Virus record (IMG/VR): IMGVR_UViG_3300007609_000049
Span: 1 to 36,099 of that record
DNA from: a virus
Strand: one strand, 5' to 3'
Length of the DNA stretch: 36,099 nucleotides
Shown: piece after piece, positions 3,466 through 26,383 of the stretch
Layout: each line of letters begins with the position of its first letter
Position numbering within the stretch: the first letter of the stretch is position 1
Notes under the pieces: model-generated
Seen by the model: only the letters and a program-made list of their open reading frames with translations
What the model was told of the DNA's origin: nothing
The model's database searches: none
Made by a program: the position numbers and the translations under genes

Positions 3466-3694
3466 TAAGTGCTTCAATTAATTTATTTGGAGTTATTTCA
3501 GATTCTCCATATTTTGCAATTAGAGTACCCATAAAACTTTGTTCTTCATCTTTTAAATCTTCTGCTCTATTTAATAACTTATCTCTCTTTTCAGCTAAAC
3601 TTTGTATACTCTTTTGCATAAGATCAATATTAAAATTAATCTCATCATATTCTTTAATAAAATATTTTAGTTTTTTCTTCTCGTCTTTTGTCAT
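3455..3694 (-). CDS. Small coiled-coil protein, function unknown
   Basis: This 79-residue protein is highly charged and almost entirely helical by appearance. Residues about 1-55 show heptad-like spacing of I, L and M among K, E and D (for example LMQKSIQSLAEKRDKLL), consistent with a coiled coil. There is no signal peptide or cysteine. It ends inside the next gene, overlapping the chosen ATG of the membrane-anchored protein by 11 bases, so the two are probably translated together and may work together. Small cytoplasmic coiled-coil proteins next to lysis-type membrane proteins are common in phages, but I see no specific family. Confidence 0.65.
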   Translation of the reverse strand: MTKDEKKKLKYFIKEYDEINFNIDLMQKSIQSLAEKRDKLLNRAEDLKDEEQSFMGTLIAKYGESEITPNKLIEALNDD

Positions 3695-3717
3695 TTGTTT
3701 CTATATTTAAAATTATA

Positions 3718-5745
3718 TTAAGTACCAACATACATTATAAACGCTAGTGCATAGTATGGTGGTAAATTTGAATCTGATTGAATTCCATGATTATGTGAAA
3801 CATTTCCACCTTCTGGCTGAATTCTAGTATTTTCTACCTTTTGTATATTTTGAGTATTTGTGCCACCTATTGAACTTATTAACATTTCAGGTGAACCACC
3901 ATCCCCTGTATCAGTACCTGAAGCAGTACGCCATCCAGCTGGTGAATTATTTGGTTCTCCGCTTGGTACTCTAGTCCATCCAGCTAAATATCCAAATCTG
4001 CTATCTAAATAAGAAGGTACATGATCGTGTTCCGGTATTTGGCTTAGAGTAAGAGTATGATCATCTGTTTGTCCACCGTGATTATGTTCTATTTCACCGC
4101 CAGTCGCTCCATTATTTTGTGATGTCCAATTTACATTAGGATTATCACCTACACCAACAACGAATCTCTGTCTTAAATCTGGTACAGTTACTCCATTTAC
4201 ATCATTACCATCACAAAGAGTCCATCCTGTAGGTATATTGTTCGTACCACCACTCCACATTATAATACCACCTACTGGTATAGGTGCTGCTTGTGATTGT
4301 GGTATTTCACTTAATTGATTATTGTTATTTGGATCTTTAACTACAAGATTACCTGTACTAGGTGATACGTCAGGTAGATTATTAGCTCTTATTGTACCGT
4401 TAAATGTAGAAACACTAGTAGGTTCACTTACATTAAACCATCCTTCTATTACAGTATCATCAGCAACGTTTAGTGTACTATTAATATTAGTCTGTGTTGA
4501 ATTTATTTCAACATTGTTAGAAGTTCCTAAAGTTATACCATTACCTTGTGCATTTAAATTAATACCAACACCTAATATGTTTACATTATTACTTCCAGTA
4601 AATGCAGAAATATCAATATCACCACTACTAGTATTTAATGAAATACCACTAGTTGTTAATTGTATATTAGTGTTTGCGTTACTATTTAATCTAATAAGAT
4701 TACCAGTTAATCCAATATTTCCAGCTTCACCTATAATTTTACCATTTTTGGTTGTTGATGGTGGTATTGTACCTAAGCCTCCGATATTTAGAGAAGCCTC
4801 ATTTCCAGTGTATAAAACATTTAATGATATTTTAGGAGGTTGTTCTAAGCCTGAATATCCATTTACATTAACAGTAAAATTAGAAGTGTCATCAACATCA
4901 GCTGGATAACTATTTTCATCAAGTCCTGTTGTAAATTCAATATTCTTACCTGCTCTAAATTGCTGTCCTCTTGTACCAGTTAAAACCCTAAGACCTATAA
5001 GATCTGATTGTGGGTTTTGTGGAGCTTTAGGAGAGTTAATTATTAAAGTATCATCTACACCTAGCGAAATATTAGATAATTCACCTATAGCATCTTGTTC
5101 AAAATAATCATCTATAAGAGTACCACCGTGAAAAATTATTGATTTTGACCCTGATGTTTTTTGGTGAATAAATAAACTTGTAATGCTTGAATTTATTGAA
5201 GTTGCTAAAGTATCAGATAAAACACTATACCCTTGACTACCTGGTGATAAAGTATCTGCATTGATTGCAGCCCCAAAAACACCAGTTGAAATACCTTCGT
5301 TTTGCGGTGTTGCACCAGTTGTATCAAATGGTGCAGGGTATATTGAAGTTTTTAGTCTTTGACTAGGTGGATTACCACCAAAAAAACTAAGACCTACACT
5401 AATACCAGCTGATCCTTGCGGTCCTGTTAAATTAACACCTGTTTGTATCCACGATGATCCATCCCACGTCCAAACATTACCATTTGATTGTAAGTAATTA
5501 TCATCTTCAATTAAATTAGAAAATATTAAACCAGTCGGAGGTGATCCTGGTTTTGGATTAGTATCTTCATACCACCTAGATCCTCTTTCACCTCTTCCCC
5601 CTATAGGACCTTGTGGACCAGTAGGGCCAGATGGGCCAGATGGGCCACCACCATTTAGAAGAAGCTGGTCAAAATTAAAATTAATTTTGTCTGCTGCTTG
5701 TGATATAGTATCAGATGCTATTATTTCTTGTATTACTATTGGCAT
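3718..5745 (-). CDS. Short tail fibre with phage collar domain (gp12-like receptor-binding protein)
   Basis: The 675-residue product starts with a short attachment-like segment (residues 1-30, IIASDTISQAADKINFNFDQ), then a collagen-like Gly-X-Y run at about 33-56 (GPSGPSGPTGPQGPIGG). A long repetitive beta region follows, and then a C-terminal phage tail collar domain. The collar is clear: PVGGIIMWSGG and IPTGWTLCDG at about 490-513, VPDLRQRFVVGVG at 521-533. His pairs occur at 554-556 (HNH), 573-575 (HDH) and 651-653 (HNH), and the end is LPPYYALAFIMYV. In T4 gp12 an HxH motif binds zinc in the trimeric tip and the tip binds the host surface; the HNH near the end is the likely equivalent. 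Its position at the end of the baseplate and fibre block matches gp12 in T4. No intramolecular chaperone or peptidase signature is visible. Confidence 0.88.
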   Translation of the reverse strand: MPIVIQEIIASDTISQAADKINFNFDQLLLNGGGPSGPSGPTGPQGPIGGRGERGSRWYEDTNPKPGSPPTGLIFSNLIEDDNYLQSNGNVWTWDGSSWIQTGVNLTGPQGSAGISVGLSFFGGNPPSQRLKTSIYPAPFDTTGATPQNEGISTGVFGAAINADTLSPGSQGYSVLSDTLATSINSSITSLFIHQKTSGSKSIIFHGGTLIDDYFEQDAIGELSNISLGVDDTLIINSPKAPQNPQSDLIGLRVLTGTRGQQFRAGKNIEFTTGLDENSYPADVDDTSNFTVNVNGYSGLEQPPKISLNVLYTGNEASLNIGGLGTIPPSTTKNGKIIGEAGNIGLTGNLIRLNSNANTNIQLTTSGISLNTSSGDIDISAFTGSNNVNILGVGINLNAQGNGITLGTSNNVEINSTQTNINSTLNVADDTVIEGWFNVSEPTSVSTFNGTIRANNLPDVSPSTGNLVVKDPNNNNQLSEIPQSQAAPIPVGGIIMWSGGTNNIPTGWTLCDGNDVNGVTVPDLRQRFVVGVGDNPNVNWTSQNNGATGGEIEHNHGGQTDDHTLTLSQIPEHDHVPSYLDSRFGYLAGWTRVPSGEPNNSPAGWRTASGTDTGDGGSPEMLISSIGGTNTQNIQKVENTRIQPEGGNVSHNHGIQSDSNLPPYYALAFIMYVGT

Positions 5746-17133: not shown

Positions 17134-20100
17134 TTACTTTATTATTAGAATATTTCTTTCTTTTTTATATTTATTACCATTACTATCCTCAAGTTCAAGA
17201 GTAATTTCATATTTACCTTCTTTCTTAAATAAGTAAGTTAAGTAACGGCTTTCAAAATATATATCAGCTATGCTTGAGTTAGTGGTATTTCTTATTTTCC
17301 ATTTAGGTTTATCCTTTCCTAATATTCTACAGTTATCATAAACAAACATTGCCCATGTTAATTTTGGTAAAGTTTTTCCATCATTAATAAATTTAGCAGT
17401 GTCCCAGGTTGGATTACTTGATATATGTAATCCTTTTTTATAAATTAAACTTTCACAACCAGTAAATCCAGTAGATCCAGTAGATCCAGTAGATCCTGTT
17501 GCTGCACATACTGTATTTCCTGAAGAATCTACAATATCAATATTAGCCCAATCACCATAAATACCAAAATATCTAGATACTGCTTGTATAAATTTTTGAT
17601 CTAAACCTGCATCATATACTACATTATAAACATACTTATTTAATATAGGATCATCAGATACATTTAATGCGGAAGCAACATCAGCTAATGTAGTATATGA
17701 TGAATCAAAGAAAAATTCACCTACATCACCATTAAGATCTTCTATTCTCAAATATGTACCAGAGTAAAATTCACTAAATTGAAAAAATGATGGAGTATCA
17801 CCTGATGTTGATGTCATATTCCACCATAAGTGATATGTATCATTCCAATTACCACCTTCTACATTATCCCAACGATATGGGCCAGCAAAACTTAAATTAC
17901 CATCATTTTGGTAATTAAGTAATTGAAAGTCTGGTGATGTACCTAGTCCAAAATTATTAAGAATTGAATTTACCCTATCTAACGATTCATATAATTTAGG
18001 AGTTTCATCGCCCCAAGTAACACTAGGTTCTATTGGTAAATTCCACTGGGACCCATAATCATTCCATTTATATTTACCATCACTTTCCCATGTATAGTTT
18101 TCCTTTCTAGCTTGGTACCATCCTGAATACTCAACTTCTTTACCTTCAACACATATTCTATCAATTTCAACTTTAGAAGATATATTATTATATAAATCAA
18201 ACATTTTCATTTCAACTGTATATGTACCTACGTAAGGTAATATTAAAGGTAGTCTTTCGTACTCAGCCATAGAACCTCTTATAGTATATAAAAATTCAGG
18301 TGAAATTTCAGTTTTTTCTTTAAAAATACTCCATTCTATTTCTTCAAAATTACCTCTAAAAATACTATCCCATGTATATAATTTAGATCCAGGTAAAATT
18401 ATTTTTTGAAAAAAGCTAGTTGAAGATTGATTTACTCTTTCCACTGATAATGATAATCTATTAGGAGTATCACCAAATAATCTTATGTCATAAAACTCAC
18501 AAGAAGTAGTACCACCAGTTGATGAACAGTTTTCTTCTGATTGAGTAATTTTATAAAAAGTCCATGGATCAATAAAATTTGATTTAAGAGTTAGTAATTG
18601 ATTAAATAAACCGTTTCTAACATCTTCTTCAGTGTCACCTAACTGTACTGTATATGATATGGTTAAATCAGTCTCCGGGTCATATATTTTATATACATCA
18701 TTTGTTGATGGCGTAATAGGTCTTAAGTCTATATTATAATATACACCACCATTGTCTAATTGATTCCATGTTGAATTTATACTATTCCATGTTTCATTCC
18801 CAAAACTACAGTTTCTTAAAACTATAGGAGCTCCTATTGGTATACCTGGTTTATCAGGTAATTGGTTTGATGATCTCCCTTCTTGGTATTTTGTTGTATT
18901 AATACCAGGTGCATATCTGGAAAAGTATGATAAAAATATATCGGATACATCTTCCACTGTTAAAGTATCACCATTAACAATATTTCCTAGTGGATCATTT
19001 ACATCAGGCCCAATAGGTGGTTTTGGTAAAACATCTCCACTATTATAAGGACCTATTATAACATTAGGTCCTGCTTTATCAACTAAAGGTGTAATAAAAG
19101 CATCACAAAAATCAACGAATGATTTTCCTACAATAGCTTCACTTTCTAAGCAGTCTAATGCAAGTGTTCTTAAATCTTCTAAATATACACATTCATCAGG
19201 TTCAACACAAAAGTTTGCATCTATTCCTATGTTTAATGTATTAGTTTCATTTTTACTTATTGTACTCGTTAATTCCTGTAGACCAAAAAATTCAGCCTCA
19301 CCTACTATTTCTTTAATATGAGCATTGAGTGGTAAAAATTCTTTTTCTAATTTTTCCTTTAATCCAAATAATTTAATTAAGACTTCTTCAATAGTAAAAT
19401 CACTAGTTTCTTCAGTTAAAGGTAAATCATCAATATCATAAAAATCTTCTCTAATTTCATTAATTTTATAAATTAAACTAAATAAACTAGTTTTTCTAAA
19501 ATTCTTATTAGGAAGAGATATTTTTTTATCATTAAGCTCTACAATAGGATCAAATATACCAATAGGATTACTTTGTATATATGTTCCAAATTTATCAGAA
19601 TTAACATTTACATTTTTCCAAAACTCCTTAACTTGTAAATTATCGTAACCAAAAAATTTAATTGCATTAATAAGACCTTTATATGAACCGATAAAGGTAT
19701 AAATATTATGCCCTTCTAACATAATTTCCTTTCTCTTTTCATTAATCTCTTGATAATCAGGTAATGATTCATTAATATCAACTTCTCTAAATATACTACT
19801 ATCTTTAGCTATAATATTATAACCAAAATTTTGAGTCATTACCTTTAATCTTTCGTCTTCTTCAATAGTTTCACCATAAATAGTAATTTCTGCAACTGTA
19901 GTTGCAGTGCTCCTATCAATAATCTTTAATGTTCTTCTGTATGTATCTTCATTCTTTGAATTAATACATATGTTAAGTTGGAGTGCTTCAGATCTAATTT
20001 GTGATGTAACTAAATATCCATCTGAATTGAATGTTTGATTAGGATCATAATCTAATGGTGCAAATATTTGATCATAAAACTGTATAGGAGGACCGTCATC

Positions 20101-20457
20101 TTCTCTTACCAATGCAGACTGTGTCCCTGTATCAAAATTACGATCAAACTGAAATAATTTTAATTCAGTAGGATCTTGGTCTTTCCATTCAATATCCCAT
20201 CCACCATTTCCAGTGATAGTAGAACCTGTTGAAGCTTCAGTATCATGAGGAAATCCGTATTTAAATACATTAGATGAATTAATTGAGGCATCAACCATTT
20301 TTTCTAATATAAATATTTGTGCAACTTCAAATAAACCTACAGATACTTGTGGTATGTAAATATCACCAGTCCACATATCTTGATCACTATCATAATCAAA
20401 ATTATAGTTTTTACCGTTTTTATCAAAAAAGTATATGTTATTCCAAAGATTTGCCAT
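17134..20457 (-). CDS. Large baseplate wedge-like protein (gp7 position)
   Basis: The 1107-residue product starts MANLWNNIYFFDKNGKNYNF. A characteristic segment, EGHNIYTFIGSYKGLINAIK followed by FFGYDNLQVKEFW, lies at about 248-280. From memory this segment is shared by large baseplate proteins of large myophages, also in phage-tail-like contexts where the polypeptide chain wraps the wedge. The gene follows the gp6-like gene and one small gene, which is the place of gp7 in the T4 order 5-25/6-7, so a wedge role is inferred. Near residues 985-998 the chain carries a short Gly-Ser-Thr triplet repeat (GSTGSTGSTGFTG) encoded by a 9-base tandem repeat. No catalytic motif is visible. The upstream gene ends 10 bases away and the leader lacks a clear Shine-Dalgarno sequence. 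Confidence 0.78.
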   Translation of the reverse strand: MANLWNNIYFFDKNGKNYNFDYDSDQDMWTGDIYIPQVSVGLFEVAQIFILEKMVDASINSSNVFKYGFPHDTEASTGSTITGNGGWDIEWKDQDPTELKLFQFDRNFDTGTQSALVREDDGPPIQFYDQIFAPLDYDPNQTFNSDGYLVTSQIRSEALQLNICINSKNEDTYRRTLKIIDRSTATTVAEITIYGETIEEDERLKVMTQNFGYNIIAKDSSIFREVDINESLPDYQEINEKRKEIMLEGHNIYTFIGSYKGLINAIKFFGYDNLQVKEFWKNVNVNSDKFGTYIQSNPIGIFDPIVELNDKKISLPNKNFRKTSLFSLIYKINEIREDFYDIDDLPLTEETSDFTIEEVLIKLFGLKEKLEKEFLPLNAHIKEIVGEAEFFGLQELTSTISKNETNTLNIGIDANFCVEPDECVYLEDLRTLALDCLESEAIVGKSFVDFCDAFITPLVDKAGPNVIIGPYNSGDVLPKPPIGPDVNDPLGNIVNGDTLTVEDVSDIFLSYFSRYAPGINTTKYQEGRSSNQLPDKPGIPIGAPIVLRNCSFGNETWNSINSTWNQLDNGGVYYNIDLRPITPSTNDVYKIYDPETDLTISYTVQLGDTEEDVRNGLFNQLLTLKSNFIDPWTFYKITQSEENCSSTGGTTSCEFYDIRLFGDTPNRLSLSVERVNQSSTSFFQKIILPGSKLYTWDSIFRGNFEEIEWSIFKEKTEISPEFLYTIRGSMAEYERLPLILPYVGTYTVEMKMFDLYNNISSKVEIDRICVEGKEVEYSGWYQARKENYTWESDGKYKWNDYGSQWNLPIEPSVTWGDETPKLYESLDRVNSILNNFGLGTSPDFQLLNYQNDGNLSFAGPYRWDNVEGGNWNDTYHLWWNMTSTSGDTPSFFQFSEFYSGTYLRIEDLNGDVGEFFFDSSYTTLADVASALNVSDDPILNKYVYNVVYDAGLDQKFIQAVSRYFGIYGDWANIDIVDSSGNTVCAATGSTGSTGSTGFTGCESLIYKKGLHISSNPTWDTAKFINDGKTLPKLTWAMFVYDNCRILGKDKPKWKIRNTTNSSIADIYFESRYLTYLFKKEGKYEITLELEDSNGNKYKKERNILIIK
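17461..17496 (-). repeat. 9-base tandem repeat (four copies) encoding Gly-Ser-Thr or Gly-Phe-Thr triplets
   Basis: Four adjacent 9-base units read agtagatcc on the plus strand; the first copy differs by a single base (agtaaatcc). In the minus-strand frame they encode three Gly-Ser-Thr units and one Gly-Phe-Thr unit inside the 1107-residue wedge-like protein. Such in-frame microrepeats can gain or lose units by slippage. The protein effect would be a flexible or collagen-like linker. Confidence 0.8.
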
Positions 20458-20744: not shown

Positions 20745-22601
20745 TTATTCTCCTTTTAAAGCTTTAATTGTAGAGGTTTGCTGTAGTCTACCTGTATTTG
20801 AACTAGTTGAATTTTTACCAGTTGCTATTGTAGTTCCTCTATTTCTTCTTAACTTATTATATCTTTCTTGTTGAGTTTTATTATATAAGTTGTTTGCAAT
20901 TTCTTCTTTAAAGAATATATTTAATGAAGATATACCGGTATCTTTAGGCGTTTCTTCATAAAAATTATTATTACGATCTTCCCATCCTCCTCTAATTATT
21001 GGAAGATCTTCAGGCCCAATAACAACATCACCAAATTCGTCCAAGCCTAATTGAGGATCTTCATCTTCTTTTAATACAATTTTTTTATTTTCAATAAGAA
21101 CTTTCTGGTCAGTGTTAGGATCAATGCCATACACTGGTATAAAATAAAAACCGTCTCTAATTGCTTTTTCATTTTCTTCAGAAATAAAAAATACATTAAC
21201 AGAGTCAATACCTTCAATATCTTCTATTATAGAAACAATATCAGATCTAGGAATTCTATCCCTTCTATTAATATTTAAAAAATAAAGATTTAATTGTTCT
21301 CTTATTTCATTTCTAATTTTATTTTTATCAGAATTTTCAAAATATCTTAAAACAATATTTAATGAATACTTTCTAATAATAGGATCATTAATTCTAACCT
21401 CTGCAGTAACAACCTGTCTTCCGCTTTGGTTAAGAATATCAAATACTTGATCTTTTTCCGCTTGTGTTAATACGAATTCTTCTTCTTCAATGTTAAAATA
21501 GTCTTTATCACTAGTAAGCTTATTTTTAATATCAGGTATTAAAAACAAATAAATTATATTATCATCATTAAGATATTGATCATCTTTTGTGTTATATGCA
21601 TCTATAAATGAAAATGCATTATATTTTCTTAAGTAGTAAATGTAGTTATTAGGATTTGCCAAAACAAATGATCTACTTGAATATGGTGCAATTAACCTAG
21701 TAAAATCAGGATCTTCTGTGTTACTTCCAAGATTAGGATTTCTTGTTATATTAATTGCAAGATATTCATTAAGATCAACATCTTCACCTGATGGGGTAGA
21801 TCCACTATCTTTAAATGAAAGGGTCATTGATTTATTTCCGCTTATATTACCTGCAGCACCTCTTGTCTTAAGATATGTTACTTCTATACTTGATCCTAAT
21901 GGAGGTCTAAACCCAAACTGTTGATTACCAAAAAAGATACTTATACCACCTGTTATACTACTTTTAACCATAACAGCTTTCATATCACGGTCCATATCAT
22001 ATAGTGAGTTAACATTTTCATATCTTTGACCGTCAACTTTAACAATTACATAATCATTATCAGTACCTTCCTTTGTAACGATATTAAAGCTTTGTAAATC
22101 TCTACCTGTACCTGTAAAATTTTGTGTTTCTAATTTTCCTTGAATTAACTCAACGTTAATAAAATCTTTATTAGATTTTTCGAGTCTTACATAATCATTA
22201 TCAAATCTTAAAAAATAAGTTAACCCATTTTCAGCAACTTCAACCTCAGCTAGATTATTAATTTGAACATAGTTACCGTTTATTTGACTAGCTTTTTCAT
22301 TTAGTCTTAATCCAATAATACCTCTAGCAGAAATACCTCTAGTAGGATCATGACCTGTTAATCTTGATAAACCATAAATTGACTCAATATTTCTTGCTCT
22401 TGCAATATTAAGTTCTGTTGCAACAGATTCAATATAAAAAAATATCATTTCACCTAAATTTGCAACTACTGTGAGTATTTGCCCAAACGGTGATGCAGGA
22501 GTAAATACCTCAACTGCTTGATCATACGTTTGCTGTAAATACCTAAACGAATCCTGGAATAATTCCGAAGCTTTTATCCTTGTCTTACTAAAAAATGACA
22601 T
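20745..22601 (-). CDS. Baseplate wedge protein, gp6 / baseplate J-like
   Basis: The product has 618 residues. The N-terminal region (residues 1-110) is helical and contains the typical opening of this family: a helical start, then ASPFGQILTVVANLGEMIFF and ARARNIESIYGLSRLTGHDP, followed by the small-residue-rich ARGIIGLRL strand. The middle carries the family-style TRGAAGNISGNKSM segment, and the C-terminal part has YSLNIVLRYFE, IRNEIREQLNLYFLNINRRD and DIVSIIEDIEGIDSVNVFFI. These correspond to the baseplate J / gp6 fold that forms the iris-like wedge ring. It lies 18 bases after the gp25-like gene, the usual neighbour in contractile systems. T4 gp6 has 660 residues, so the length fits. Confidence 0.9.
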   Translation of the reverse strand: MSFFSKTRIKASELFQDSFRYLQQTYDQAVEVFTPASPFGQILTVVANLGEMIFFYIESVATELNIARARNIESIYGLSRLTGHDPTRGISARGIIGLRLNEKASQINGNYVQINNLAEVEVAENGLTYFLRFDNDYVRLEKSNKDFINVELIQGKLETQNFTGTGRDLQSFNIVTKEGTDNDYVIVKVDGQRYENVNSLYDMDRDMKAVMVKSSITGGISIFFGNQQFGFRPPLGSSIEVTYLKTRGAAGNISGNKSMTLSFKDSGSTPSGEDVDLNEYLAINITRNPNLGSNTEDPDFTRLIAPYSSRSFVLANPNNYIYYLRKYNAFSFIDAYNTKDDQYLNDDNIIYLFLIPDIKNKLTSDKDYFNIEEEEFVLTQAEKDQVFDILNQSGRQVVTAEVRINDPIIRKYSLNIVLRYFENSDKNKIRNEIREQLNLYFLNINRRDRIPRSDIVSIIEDIEGIDSVNVFFISEENEKAIRDGFYFIPVYGIDPNTDQKVLIENKKIVLKEDEDPQLGLDEFGDVVIGPEDLPIIRGGWEDRNNNFYEETPKDTGISSLNIFFKEEIANNLYNKTQQERYNKLRRNRGTTIATGKNSTSSNTGRLQQTSTIKALKGE

Positions 22602-22619: not shown

Positions 22620-22982
22620 TTAATATAGTGCACCTATTACTCTCTGTTCATTAACAAAAATATCAACCAATGCACCGTCTCTTTCTTCAGTCTTATAAAA
22701 CCTTACTTTTGAATTAACTATAAATTTACGGTCACCTGAAGTACAATAAGCAGTTAACTGTTGATTTATTTTTTGTTCAATAACAGATTCATTTAATACA
22801 AGAGAAAATATTAAATCATCTAAATTACAGCCAAAATCAGATACTCCTAAAACTTCAGTTTTCCTGGTTAATAAAGTATTTTCTATTTTTACAATAAGTT
22901 GAGATAATGCATCATCGACTTCTAAACGAGATGGGTCGTATTTTGCTGAATTTTCTTCCCTGCTGTAAATATCCTTAATCAT
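22620..22982 (-). CDS. Baseplate wedge protein, gp25-like
   Basis: The 120-residue product has the size and pattern of the gp25 family that forms the core of the wedge bundle with gp6: an N-terminal extension, an amphipathic helix (DDALSQLIVKIENTLLTRKT), the signature EVLGVSDFGCNLDDLIF at about 43-59, a second helix (ESVIEQKINQQLTAYC), and a C-terminal beta hairpin (KVRFYKTEERDGALVDIFV). The classical E-P-R triplet of many gp25 proteins is not seen; SGDRKFIV occupies about that place. The gene directly precedes the gp6-like gene. The ATG at 22982 follows a 7-bp hairpin and has no Shine-Dalgarno sequence. Confidence 0.88.
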   Translation of the reverse strand: MIKDIYSREENSAKYDPSRLEVDDALSQLIVKIENTLLTRKTEVLGVSDFGCNLDDLIFSLVLNESVIEQKINQQLTAYCTSGDRKFIVNSKVRFYKTEERDGALVDIFVNEQRVIGALY

Positions 22983-23053: not shown

Positions 23054-23896
23054 TTATCCAGTAAAAAAGTAATCAACACCTTCATCCCCTTTTATCTCTT
23101 CTATAATTTGAGTTAATTCTTCTTGCCCTTCACTTAACACAAGATCAAAGTTTATAGTAATGTTACCTGGTAAATTGTAATTAAAGGTTCCTAAAATTCT
23201 TGCAAGCTGTGTTTTTGCTTTAGCAGTACAGTATCGTATGAACACTTCGTCTTGAAATAAATAGCAATCAGATATTTTAGAATATATTTGAAAGATTACA
23301 GTATGTTTAGGTAGTTCTCCCATAAATCTTAGTTTATGAGAAAGTCTGTTATAATTGTATGATATTTGTGGTTGTAGTGCTTGTCTAGCGTTATCTATAA
23401 ATTTTTCGTTAATTACATAATACATTAAATTTTCACTTCCTATTCCTGCACCATAAAGATCATCATAAATAAATTTGTCTATAGATAAATCAGGATCACC
23501 AGCAGAAAATGACCTAGACCCAAAACCACCATCTTCACCAGAAAATCCACCAATTTCAAACACATTGTTTACTGAATACACACCATGAGGCATACTAACC
23601 ACACCTCTATTACTTTGTAAATTACTTTTTGATAATGTATCGCTTTTATTATTTATACCATCAGAAAAACCACCATTATCCCATGCACTTGCAGGTAAAG
23701 CAATGTACATTTCTTCAACGCTATCTTCATAAATTTTATAAAAATAATCTTTAGCTCTTTTAACTATTCTAGCAATTTCCTTTTTAGGTACTGTAAACGG
23801 TACCTGGCATGCTATAGTTAACTCATCATTAATTTCTTTGATTAATGTATCTAAACATTCTTTTGCATTAGGATCATCACAATCAACGTAACTCAT
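23054..23896 (-). CDS. Conserved phage tail or neck structural protein, role unknown
   Basis: This 280-residue protein starts MSYVDCDDPNAKECLDTLIK. Recognisable stretches are IARIVKRAKDYFYKIYEDSV (about 42-61), YNRLSHKLRFMGELPKHTVI, then FIRYCTAKAKTQLARILGTF and NYNLPGNITINFDLVLSEGQ towards the C-terminus. From memory, proteins with the pair KAK.QLARILGTF and LPG..TINYD occur in the tail regions of large myophages, where they are usually annotated as structural. There is no transmembrane or catalytic signature. It starts 3 bases after the amidoligase-like gene, so the two are probably cotranslated, and it ends 71 bases before the gp25-like gene. It could be a baseplate or a tail-completion protein; I cannot choose between them. 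Confidence 0.68.
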   Translation of the reverse strand: MSYVDCDDPNAKECLDTLIKEINDELTIACQVPFTVPKKEIARIVKRAKDYFYKIYEDSVEEMYIALPASAWDNGGFSDGINNKSDTLSKSNLQSNRGVVSMPHGVYSVNNVFEIGGFSGEDGGFGSRSFSAGDPDLSIDKFIYDDLYGAGIGSENLMYYVINEKFIDNARQALQPQISYNYNRLSHKLRFMGELPKHTVIFQIYSKISDCYLFQDEVFIRYCTAKAKTQLARILGTFNYNLPGNITINFDLVLSEGQEELTQIIEEIKGDEGVDYFFTG

Positions 23897-23899
23897 AAC

Positions 23900-25195
23900 T
23901 TATTTTATTTTTTCTATTTCTATAACCTCAGTATTATTAAATTTAGCATGATTAGTAGCTCTACCTTTTCTAAATATACCACCATTCATCTCACCGCTAA
24001 AAACACCTAATTTTCCAAAAATATAACAATCATCAGTCATGACATTTCTACTCACATAAGAATCTTCAATTTTTGATTTCTTAACAGTAGTATTACCAAA
24101 TAAGTTTGATTGTAATACTGAAGAATCTAAAATTTCACAATTAAATAAATCACATGTTTTTATATTTCCTTTAATTGTACAATCAACTAAATCAACATTT
24201 TCAACTAAAAAACATTTGTTTAATACAGAATCTTTAATTTGGATTTTACTAATGTCAGAATCATAATTCAATAGCCCTGAAGATAAACCAGATTCTGTTA
24301 TAAGTTTAAATATATTATCTCTCATTTTAGGATAATACATTTCAATTATATTATCATAGGTCTGAAGATCAACCATTAATTTAATTTTAGGATATATCTT
24401 TTTAAATTTAGAATACGATTTATATGATTGAATTACCTTTTGGTGGTTTTCTAAAATTTTATCTAATGATAATTTATCCTCTTTAGTATAGTTAGGATAT
24501 TCTAAAGTTTCATATAGTGAAATTATAAAATGTTCTGTTATTCTTAATATTGAATTATACTTCTTTTCATAATCTTTACCACCTAAATATCTAAATTCAA
24601 TATACCCTTTAGGTACTTTAGTAAAATTAACACCATAATATTTTTCATTAACAAACTTATAATTTTGCCATATAGTTTTTCCTGATGAATCTTGTGTCAT
24701 TCCACTAAGAGGCACCACAAATTTTATTGATTTTGCATATACTGAATCTTTTCTATTAGGAAATGCCTTATATACTTTGTCTTCATCAAAATTAAGGACA
24801 AATTTACCAATATCTAAATTTGATACATTAACAGATGGTCCTAAGGTTTTACCATCAAATGCAATATTAACATGAATTGAACATCTTTCATTAGTATTTC
24901 CATTTTCTCTTATCCACTTTAAAGTTTTTGCTAAAATTAACTTAGCTTCAGTAAAATGAAGCGGCCCTGTTACGAGTTCAATCATACCAGTACCACCTGA
25001 ATTATCTGGTTCTAATTTAAATGTGGTATCTGATGGTGTAAAATCACTATGAGCCTTTTCCTCAATTCTTATTCTTTTATTTAAAGATTGAATTAAAGAT
25101 TCTTTAGTTTTACTAAGATCTATGTTTGAGAAAAATTCAAACTCAAAACCTATCTTTGAGTTATGAATTGCTATAAGCTGTTCATTTGAATACAT
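23900..25195 (-). CDS. Amidoligase-like enzyme fused to pentapeptide repeats
   Basis: The 431-residue product has two parts. Residues about 10-300 match the pattern of the glutamine-synthetase-fold amidoligase family: GFEFEFF (16-22, acidic residues E18 and E20), MIELVTGPLHF (71-81, E73), CSIHVNI (105-111, H108) and YIEFRYLGG (198-206, E200, R202). Enzymes of this family are thought to use ATP to join a carboxyl and an amino group, forming amide bonds on peptides, proteins or cell-wall material. Residues about 320-395 form a run of pentapeptide repeats (CDLFN, CEILD, SSVLQ, SNLFG and similar), which should fold as a right-handed beta-helix. The gene sits between the S1 homologue and a tail gene. 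Its ATG at 25195 is inside a perfect 15-bp inverted repeat and has no Shine-Dalgarno sequence. The substrate is unknown. The domain calls rest on motif recognition only. Confidence 0.75.
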   Translation of the reverse strand: MYSNEQLIAIHNSKIGFEFEFFSNIDLSKTKESLIQSLNKRIRIEEKAHSDFTPSDTTFKLEPDNSGGTGMIELVTGPLHFTEAKLILAKTLKWIRENGNTNERCSIHVNIAFDGKTLGPSVNVSNLDIGKFVLNFDEDKVYKAFPNRKDSVYAKSIKFVVPLSGMTQDSSGKTIWQNYKFVNEKYYGVNFTKVPKGYIEFRYLGGKDYEKKYNSILRITEHFIISLYETLEYPNYTKEDKLSLDKILENHQKVIQSYKSYSKFKKIYPKIKLMVDLQTYDNIIEMYYPKMRDNIFKLITESGLSSGLLNYDSDISKIQIKDSVLNKCFLVENVDLVDCTIKGNIKTCDLFNCEILDSSVLQSNLFGNTTVKKSKIEDSYVSRNVMTDDCYIFGKLGVFSGEMNGGIFRKGRATNHAKFNNTEVIEIEKIK

Positions 25196-25240: not shown

Positions 25241-26383
25241 TTAAGATAATCCCATTGAAATTTTTCGTTCATTAGGGCTAATACTTCTGATAATAACTTC
25301 AACACTATCACCTTTATTTAAAGTTTTATCATTAAGTTCAGATTTATGGAGAAGTCCACTTATTCCTTTTTCTAATTGTATAAATACTCCATATTTTGTT
25401 TTTTTAGTAACTTTACCTATTACATTTTTCATAGGTGGATATTTTTTACCTGCACCATCCCATGGGTCTTCAACAGCACCATGTTGAGTAAGAATAATTT
25501 TATTTTGATTAATAATATCCTTAACCCAAAATTTAATGTCATCACCTGGTTTAATTGTTCTGGATTCAAATTCTTTTAATGATTCACTGATTTCATCCTT
25601 TGGTATTAATCCTGTTAAACATTCATTAAATTCAGCGAAAATTCCAAAGGTAGTAGTACCAGTAACCTTTCCTATAATATATTCTTTAGTATTTGATCTT
25701 AAGTCATCAATTTCAGTTGGAATTAAAGTCTTAAGATATTCACGGTGAGATACCACTATTGTATTTTTTTCACGTGAATATGTAATTGGCATAACTATTA
25801 ATTCCTTACCAATTAGAGAATTAAAGTCATGTAGTTTATTTATGCCACCTAACGATCCTGGCATGAAACATCTTATTCCTGAAATTTCAACCCAATAACC
25901 ACCATGAATAAGCTCTTTAACTTTGCATTTATATCCTACTGATTTATTTCCGATAGATTCTAATATTTCAGCTTTCTTAACCTCTGCTAATGCATCAGAT
26001 ATAGATGCAATTATTTCACCATTAGGCTTTGTTTTAATTTTAACATCAACTATCATATTAGGTTTAAGCTGCTCAGAAATTTCTTTAGGCTCTTTCGTTG
26101 TATAACATACTGCTGTAAATTTAGAACCAATATTAACAAGCGCATGATCTTCACTAACACTATGTATAATACCTTTCATAATAGCACCATCAGGTACATC
26201 AACATTATTATATGATTCGTCATCATTATTATTACCTTCAATATCGATACCATAGTCTTTAAGCATATCAATAGCATAAGGCTCACTTGATAAAAGTTTA
26301 ACCCCTTTAGGTAATTTTAATTTTACCGTTTTAGTATCAAACGGATCTTCACTTAATTGGATTGTAATTTCTTGTTCAATCAT
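25241..26383 (-). CDS. Phage-encoded ribosomal protein S1 homologue (four S1 domains)
   Basis: The 380-residue product carries four S1 (OB-fold RNA-binding) domains at about 65-128, 147-213, 233-300 and 318-379, after a 60-residue acidic N-terminal extension. The order and linkers match bacterial bS1 domains 1-4. Domain 2 has the GGYWVEISGIRCFMPGSL pattern (bS1: GGFTVELNGIRAFLPGSL) and ends NTIVVSHREYL. Domain 3 ends at VEDPW...KKYPP, like EDPW...KRYP in E. coli S1. Domain 4 reads KYGVFIQLEKGISGLLHKSE. Domains 5-6 of the 557-residue E. coli protein are absent. In bS1, domains 1-2 dock on the 30S subunit and the following domains hold and unwind mRNA. A role in recruiting phage mRNA to ribosomes is therefore likely, but it is inference. 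The gene follows the longest intergenic gap of the window (86 bases) and precedes the amidoligase-like gene. Confidence 0.92.
   Translation of the reverse strand: MIEQEITIQLSEDPFDTKTVKLKLPKGVKLLSSEPYAIDMLKDYGIDIEGNNNDDESYNNVDVPDGAIMKGIIHSVSEDHALVNIGSKFTAVCYTTKEPKEISEQLKPNMIVDVKIKTKPNGEIIASISDALAEVKKAEILESIGNKSVGYKCKVKELIHGGYWVEISGIRCFMPGSLGGINKLHDFNSLIGKELIVMPITYSREKNTIVVSHREYLKTLIPTEIDDLRSNTKEYIIGKVTGTTTFGIFAEFNECLTGLIPKDEISESLKEFESRTIKPGDDIKFWVKDIINQNKIILTQHGAVEDPWDGAGKKYPPMKNVIGKVTKKTKYGVFIQLEKGISGLLHKSELNDKTLNKGDSVEVIIRSISPNERKISMGLS

Follow-up and report, generated by a model that had tools for sequence, protein, structure and literature searches.

How an amide-forming enzyme fused to a beta-solenoid would serve inside a phage tail operon is the question raised by one gene of the IMG/VR virus record IMGVR_UViG_3300007609_000049, analysed here as a stretch of 36,099 nucleotides (the window). 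The program-made ORF list placed a 431-aa frame with an ATG start at exactly 23900-25195 on the minus strand, within a run of genes on the same strand. A preliminary description, made from the sequence, had read this gene as an amidoligase-like domain of 300 residues followed by clean pentapeptide repeats.

The 431-aa protein scored 23.9 bits (E 4.5e-5) against Amidoligase_2 (PF12224), above the curated Pfam cut-off of 22 bits, in an alignment spanning profile positions 3-118 of 245. One relative (L150) aligned to positions 2-224, and the same model was matched by 19 of 39 diverse relatives. The AlphaFold2 model, built from 39 window and IMG/VR sequences, had a mean pLDDT of 90.3 at full length. 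Residues 1-235 of the model (24491-25195, minus strand) resembled glutamine synthetases (Z 10.6-12.6) with about 10% sequence identity; the best match was 4bax_A (Z 12.6, 3.2 A over 181 residues). Foldseek comparison with viral models matched many phage proteins named amidoligase with a probability of 1.00 at lower coverage, and a PDB sequence search returned weak pentapeptide-protein matches and chance-level hits only. The family and the glutamine-synthetase-like fold proposed at the outset were therefore confirmed, but the domain is shorter than proposed, as residues of about 238-302 (24290-24484, minus strand) form a helical linker in the model. A low-confidence loop at about residues 160-180 of the model could be a substrate flap.

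The conserved residues of the domain fall into six motifs, all on the minus strand: GFEFEF (E18, E20; 25133-25150), FKLEPDNSGG (K60, E62, D64, S66; 24992-25021), IELVTGP (E73; 24962-24982), SIHVNI (H108, N110; 24863-24880), FPNRKDSVYAKSIK (R148, S156, K158; 24722-24763) and IEFRYLGG (E200, R202, then Y203 and G205; 24578-24601). The four motifs originally singled out (GFEFEF, IELVTGP, SIHVNI and IEFRYLGG) are all present in the protein. The ExE, D-x-S, E, H and E-x-R residues were complete in the window protein and its intact relatives, with H108 replaced by Gln in one clade. Among the 146 loci of our first searches (lineages without the site came from later searches), E18, E20, K60, E62, D64, S66, E73, E138, R148, K185, N190, E200 and R202 were near-invariant. 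The expectation that E18, E20, E73, H108 and R202 would recur in homologues held in these loci for all but H108, which was Gln in 19 of the 146; the site as a whole was lost in some other lineages. The H108Q clade (L060-L080; contigs G002 and G008) was well supported and carried Gly or Ser at N110, the site being otherwise intact; judging from these residues, its enzyme is probably active with an altered site. In two contigs of this clade, a GATase_6 gene lies at a distance of about 30 kb.

The C-terminal part, residues 305-431 (23903-24283, minus strand), was modelled alone as a beta-solenoid with a pLDDT of 96. It resembled 2j8k (Z 10.1, 4.0 A over 127 residues) and MfpA (Z 9.4, 2.5 A over 113 residues), and its hydrophobic residues recurred with a period of five (p 8e-4), no other tested period being significant. 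The same periodicity was found at p<0.01 in 26 of 39 relatives. No Pfam pentapeptide model matched the window protein, whereas Pentapeptide_4 was matched by 8 of the 39 relatives. The solenoid thus shares its shape and five-residue strand spacing with pentapeptide-repeat proteins (NP275/NP276, MfpA, AlbG, Qnr), but it is short, with irregular ends, and pectate lyase and Ag43 scored in the same range, so that the fold alone is not specific to that family. To call the repeats clean was therefore a slight overstatement, although a solenoid with a five-residue period is present.

The proposed tail-operon setting was well founded. The amidoligase stop codon is followed, after only 3 nt, by the ATG of the adjacent downstream gene, g13 (280 aa; 23054-23896), the product of which weakly matched the PHROG 'head-tail adaptor'. 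Also downstream lie the genes of a gp25-like baseplate wedge protein (22620-22982) and a gp6/baseplate-J-like wedge protein (20745-22601). The upstream neighbour encodes an S1-domain protein (25241-26383; E 8.9e-24), beyond which lies a gene for an OB-fold hub protein; the g13, gp25-like, gp6-like and S1-domain genes are all on the minus strand. Promoter and terminator scans remained near shuffled expectation, and an Rfam search gave no match. S1-like proteins have been reported in huge phages (PMC7162821); the S1-domain gene lies inside the tail module in most of our loci, a placement that the parts of that paper available to us do not mention.

This architecture is recurrent. One profile scan found 503 related viral stretches, many of them near full length, and five huge-phage records of 462-735 kb (LR756500, LR756502, LR745206, LR756501 and LR756504) each carried one full-length copy. 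The 642-kb genome LR756502 (W02) additionally showed a partial, weak amidoligase-like match at 208753-208977 with one internal TAA. Most loci, at identities between 70% and about 37%, showed the order hub, S1, amidoligase, g13, gp25, gp6. The amidoligase gene lay directly upstream of g13 in 156 of 157 g13-anchored loci (those with at least 1.4 kb upstream; some loci derive from the same contigs). In the exception, L305, the g13-like gene (3477-4355) is surrounded by genes on both strands; the locus has no other recognised module gene, and no amidoligase was found on the 121-kb contig. In a Mahaphage-like group, the amidoligase gene was relocated, often adjoining other tail genes. Bacterial and archaeal genomes yielded two relatives, L149 and L150, from Deltaproteobacteria and Bacteroidetes MAGs into which phage contigs had probably been binned; L149 has the same module and L150 has a large tail-gene homologue nearby. 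A plasmid search for relatives found none.

Several lineages keep the gene without its active site. The amidoligase profile scan had used active-site peptides and was thus biased against such copies, and g13-based searches were added for them. We refer to these copies as dead on the basis of their residues, and an altered chemistry is possible. Dead clade 1 (L049, L154 and L195) is sister to the intact L012; L049 had lost 12 of 37 conserved ligase-domain columns and none of nine elsewhere. The g13-based searches added dead copies in L294, L296, L297 and L299, in the L306 group (12 loci) and in L337, which is sister to intact relatives. The supported tree branches require the state to have switched between intact and dead at least three times; we read these as at least three independent losses, since the site is common to other amidoligases. 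The dead copies had open frames, occupied the same gene place and retained the solenoid, and each checked contig with a dead version, itself a fragment, carried one copy only. Among seven dead representatives, the alignment of the most diverged being uncertain in loops, E73, E200 and G68 were retained in none, and E18, E62 and H49 in at most two. In contrast, F21, T101, K131, L134, E138, P146, R148, S156, K158, Y203, G205, G206, Y209, P269, N310, G343, G406 and G411 were retained in all seven, so that the R148/S156/K158 motif persists even in dead lineages. Y209, though kept in the dead versions, was Trp in 22 intact sequences (L398, L352, L361 and others). The more diverged dead lineages lacked the solenoid residue R409, and L195 had Lys in its place, a hint that the solenoid may reach the active site.

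The dead copies remained under purifying selection. In dead clade 1, the ligase-domain dN/dS was 0.13-0.21 against the intact sister L012 and 0.21-0.24 among the members themselves, with dS near saturation in both comparisons, whereas intact pairs gave about 0.06; the solenoid values were similar in dead and intact copies. The dead pair L306/L411 gave 0.06 in both domains at an unsaturated dS of about 0.6-0.7. Conserved columns changed in dead clade 1 amounted to 9-19% for the amidoligase and mostly 0-5% for neighbouring genes, with up to 12% in three small ones. Because the dead copies keep their frame, place, solenoid and a second residue set under such selection, the scaffold probably has a role that does not need catalysis. 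The initial reading was right on fold, family and architecture, and neither of the observations named as refuting it was made for most close homologues. As a purely enzymatic account it is incomplete, since some lineages retain the protein in place after the catalytic residues are gone.

This evidence bears on two simpler explanations. The protein might be an enzyme only, an amide ligase that acts on a tail protein while the tail is assembled and has no part in its structure, the dead copies being decaying remnants. The near-invariance of catalytic-type residues in most lineages and the tail-module placement would fit, but the dead copies stay in frame, in place and single-copy on their contigs and show the constraint measured for L306/L411, and we regard this explanation as unlikely. 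Conversely, the protein might be purely structural, a pseudoenzyme in the window phage as well, with the catalytic residues serving folding or ligand binding rather than ligation. The tail-module placement is compatible with this, and the fold does outlive those residues in several lineages; however, even highly diverged relatives conserve the full catalytic-type set, and its residues disappear jointly, as those of an active site should, which leaves a purely structural protein rather improbable.

The possible targets of the ligase were also narrowed. Phage amidoligase genes typically share a cassette with those for glutamine amidotransferase, COOH-NH2 ligase and ATP-grasp proteins, for which a peptidoglycan change has been proposed (PMC5498523, PMC3890496). 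The amidoligases of LUZ24 (gp18), a Kuravirus and Aeromonas phage LAh_9 share with the window protein the motif order G-x-E-x-E, D-x-S, E, H-x-H/N, R-x-D-S, K-Y-x-x-N, I-E-F-R; profile-profile comparison with LUZ24-type amidoligases gave an E of 0.16, not significant alone, with the motifs in register. The genes of the LUZ24-type enzymes sit in such cassettes, beside those for GATase, COOH-NH2 ligase or ATP-grasp proteins, whereas the window protein comes from a single tail-module gene and has a solenoid. Since these proteins belong to one enzyme family, the ligase could modify peptidoglycan or the cell surface and so exclude other phages, as proposed for the phiEco32/LUZ24 cassette (PMC5498523). 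Wall material, one of the targets first suggested, lost support: GATase_6, the usual partner, was found neither in the five huge-phage records nor in those window genes that the Pfam scan covered, and both the tail-module location and the conservation of dead copies also speak against it. We consider wall modification decidedly improbable.

Another early suggestion, that the ligase acts on the S1 protein of the phage or on the host ribosome, is favoured by the S1 gene lying directly upstream in most loci. In four huge genomes retaining both genes, however, S1 was 48-443 kb away (record coordinates), which makes an S1 substrate less likely, and S1 showed little change in lineages with a dead ligase; this target now appears very improbable indeed. 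A further alternative is that a small molecule, host protein or other target is modified during infection, as auxiliary metabolism, with the tail-module place reflecting operon history. Many amidoligases have unknown substrates, and in the 735-kb phage the gene lies far from gp6 and the recognised tail genes, near ParB, homing endonuclease and methyltransferase genes, a location that counts against a tail role. The nearly fixed adjacency to g13 and the conservation of dead copies argue the other way, and such an auxiliary function seems quite improbable. A virion protein, also among the initial candidates, is a possible target.

We surveyed the conserved columns of nine genes for residues lost together with the active site. 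The only column outside the amidoligase that was freed to three residues was E395 of the 1107-aa g09 (17134-20457), which became S, I and A in the three dead clade 1 contigs and was conserved in the close clade; seven control triples contained no column of this kind. In other intact lineages, this position was N, S, K, A or V, and E395 was therefore rejected as a family-wide acceptor. No family-wide acceptor residue was found in the surveyed genes. In g13, most family members had Tyr at position 159, where dead clade 1 had Ala. This single inherited change is no more than suggestive, and Y159 is a possible contact residue with the amidoligase.

Two other phage proteins resemble the window protein. 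Agrobacterium phage Atu_ph07 gp196 carries an amidoligase domain (25% identity) and is encoded near the portal gene but, unlike the window protein, shows no solenoid region in the alignment; judged by its number, it falls within the CDS 170-215 cluster that is described as rich in virion proteins (PMC6102473). The uncharacterized, unannotated A0A6J5PQ40 of an uncultured Caudovirales phage was a full-length structural match (TM 0.90, 25% identity), and the other viral structural matches appear limited to the ligase part.

With moderate confidence, we favour a protein of the huge-phage tail/baseplate module that has two jobs, ligase and assembly scaffold. The fold, family, context, conservation and repeated loss under selection were computed; the chemistry, substrate and docking set out here are what we infer. 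In the first job, residues 1-235 would act as an amide ligase of the Amidoligase_2 group that depends on ATP and metal, as the fold and conservation suggest. At the ExE / D-x-S / E73 / E200-x-R202 site, a carboxylate would be phosphorylated and so activated before being joined to an amine, the likeliest substrate being a phage tail protein from the same operon. Selection on the catalytically dead relatives supports the existence of a second job. In this job, the solenoid, together with K131, E138, P146, R148, S156, K158, Y203, G205 and Y209 as a docking set, would allow the scaffold to dock with, or join, the assembling tail beside the g13, gp25-like and gp6-like proteins, and catalysis would be dispensable while this job persists. 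A more specific version, in which the baseplate module's own ATP-dependent ligase marks or cross-links a neighbouring tail protein covalently through an amide and also stays as an assembly or structural part, the chemistry being repeatedly discarded and the part kept, is doubtful, although we retain it tentatively.

Phage amidoligases themselves are known, and the apparently new elements are the solenoid fusion, the fixed tail-module place and the repeated catalytic loss; the literature found, which excluded most subscription journals, described only generic phage amidoligases. If the two-job explanation is true, the largest known phages have recruited a metabolic-enzyme fold, as a conserved tail-module protein, into the building of their tails, and the enzyme has naturally become a scaffold at least three times. 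The paired intact and dead lineages would then offer a direct route to the substrate and to splitting the catalytic from the structural function.
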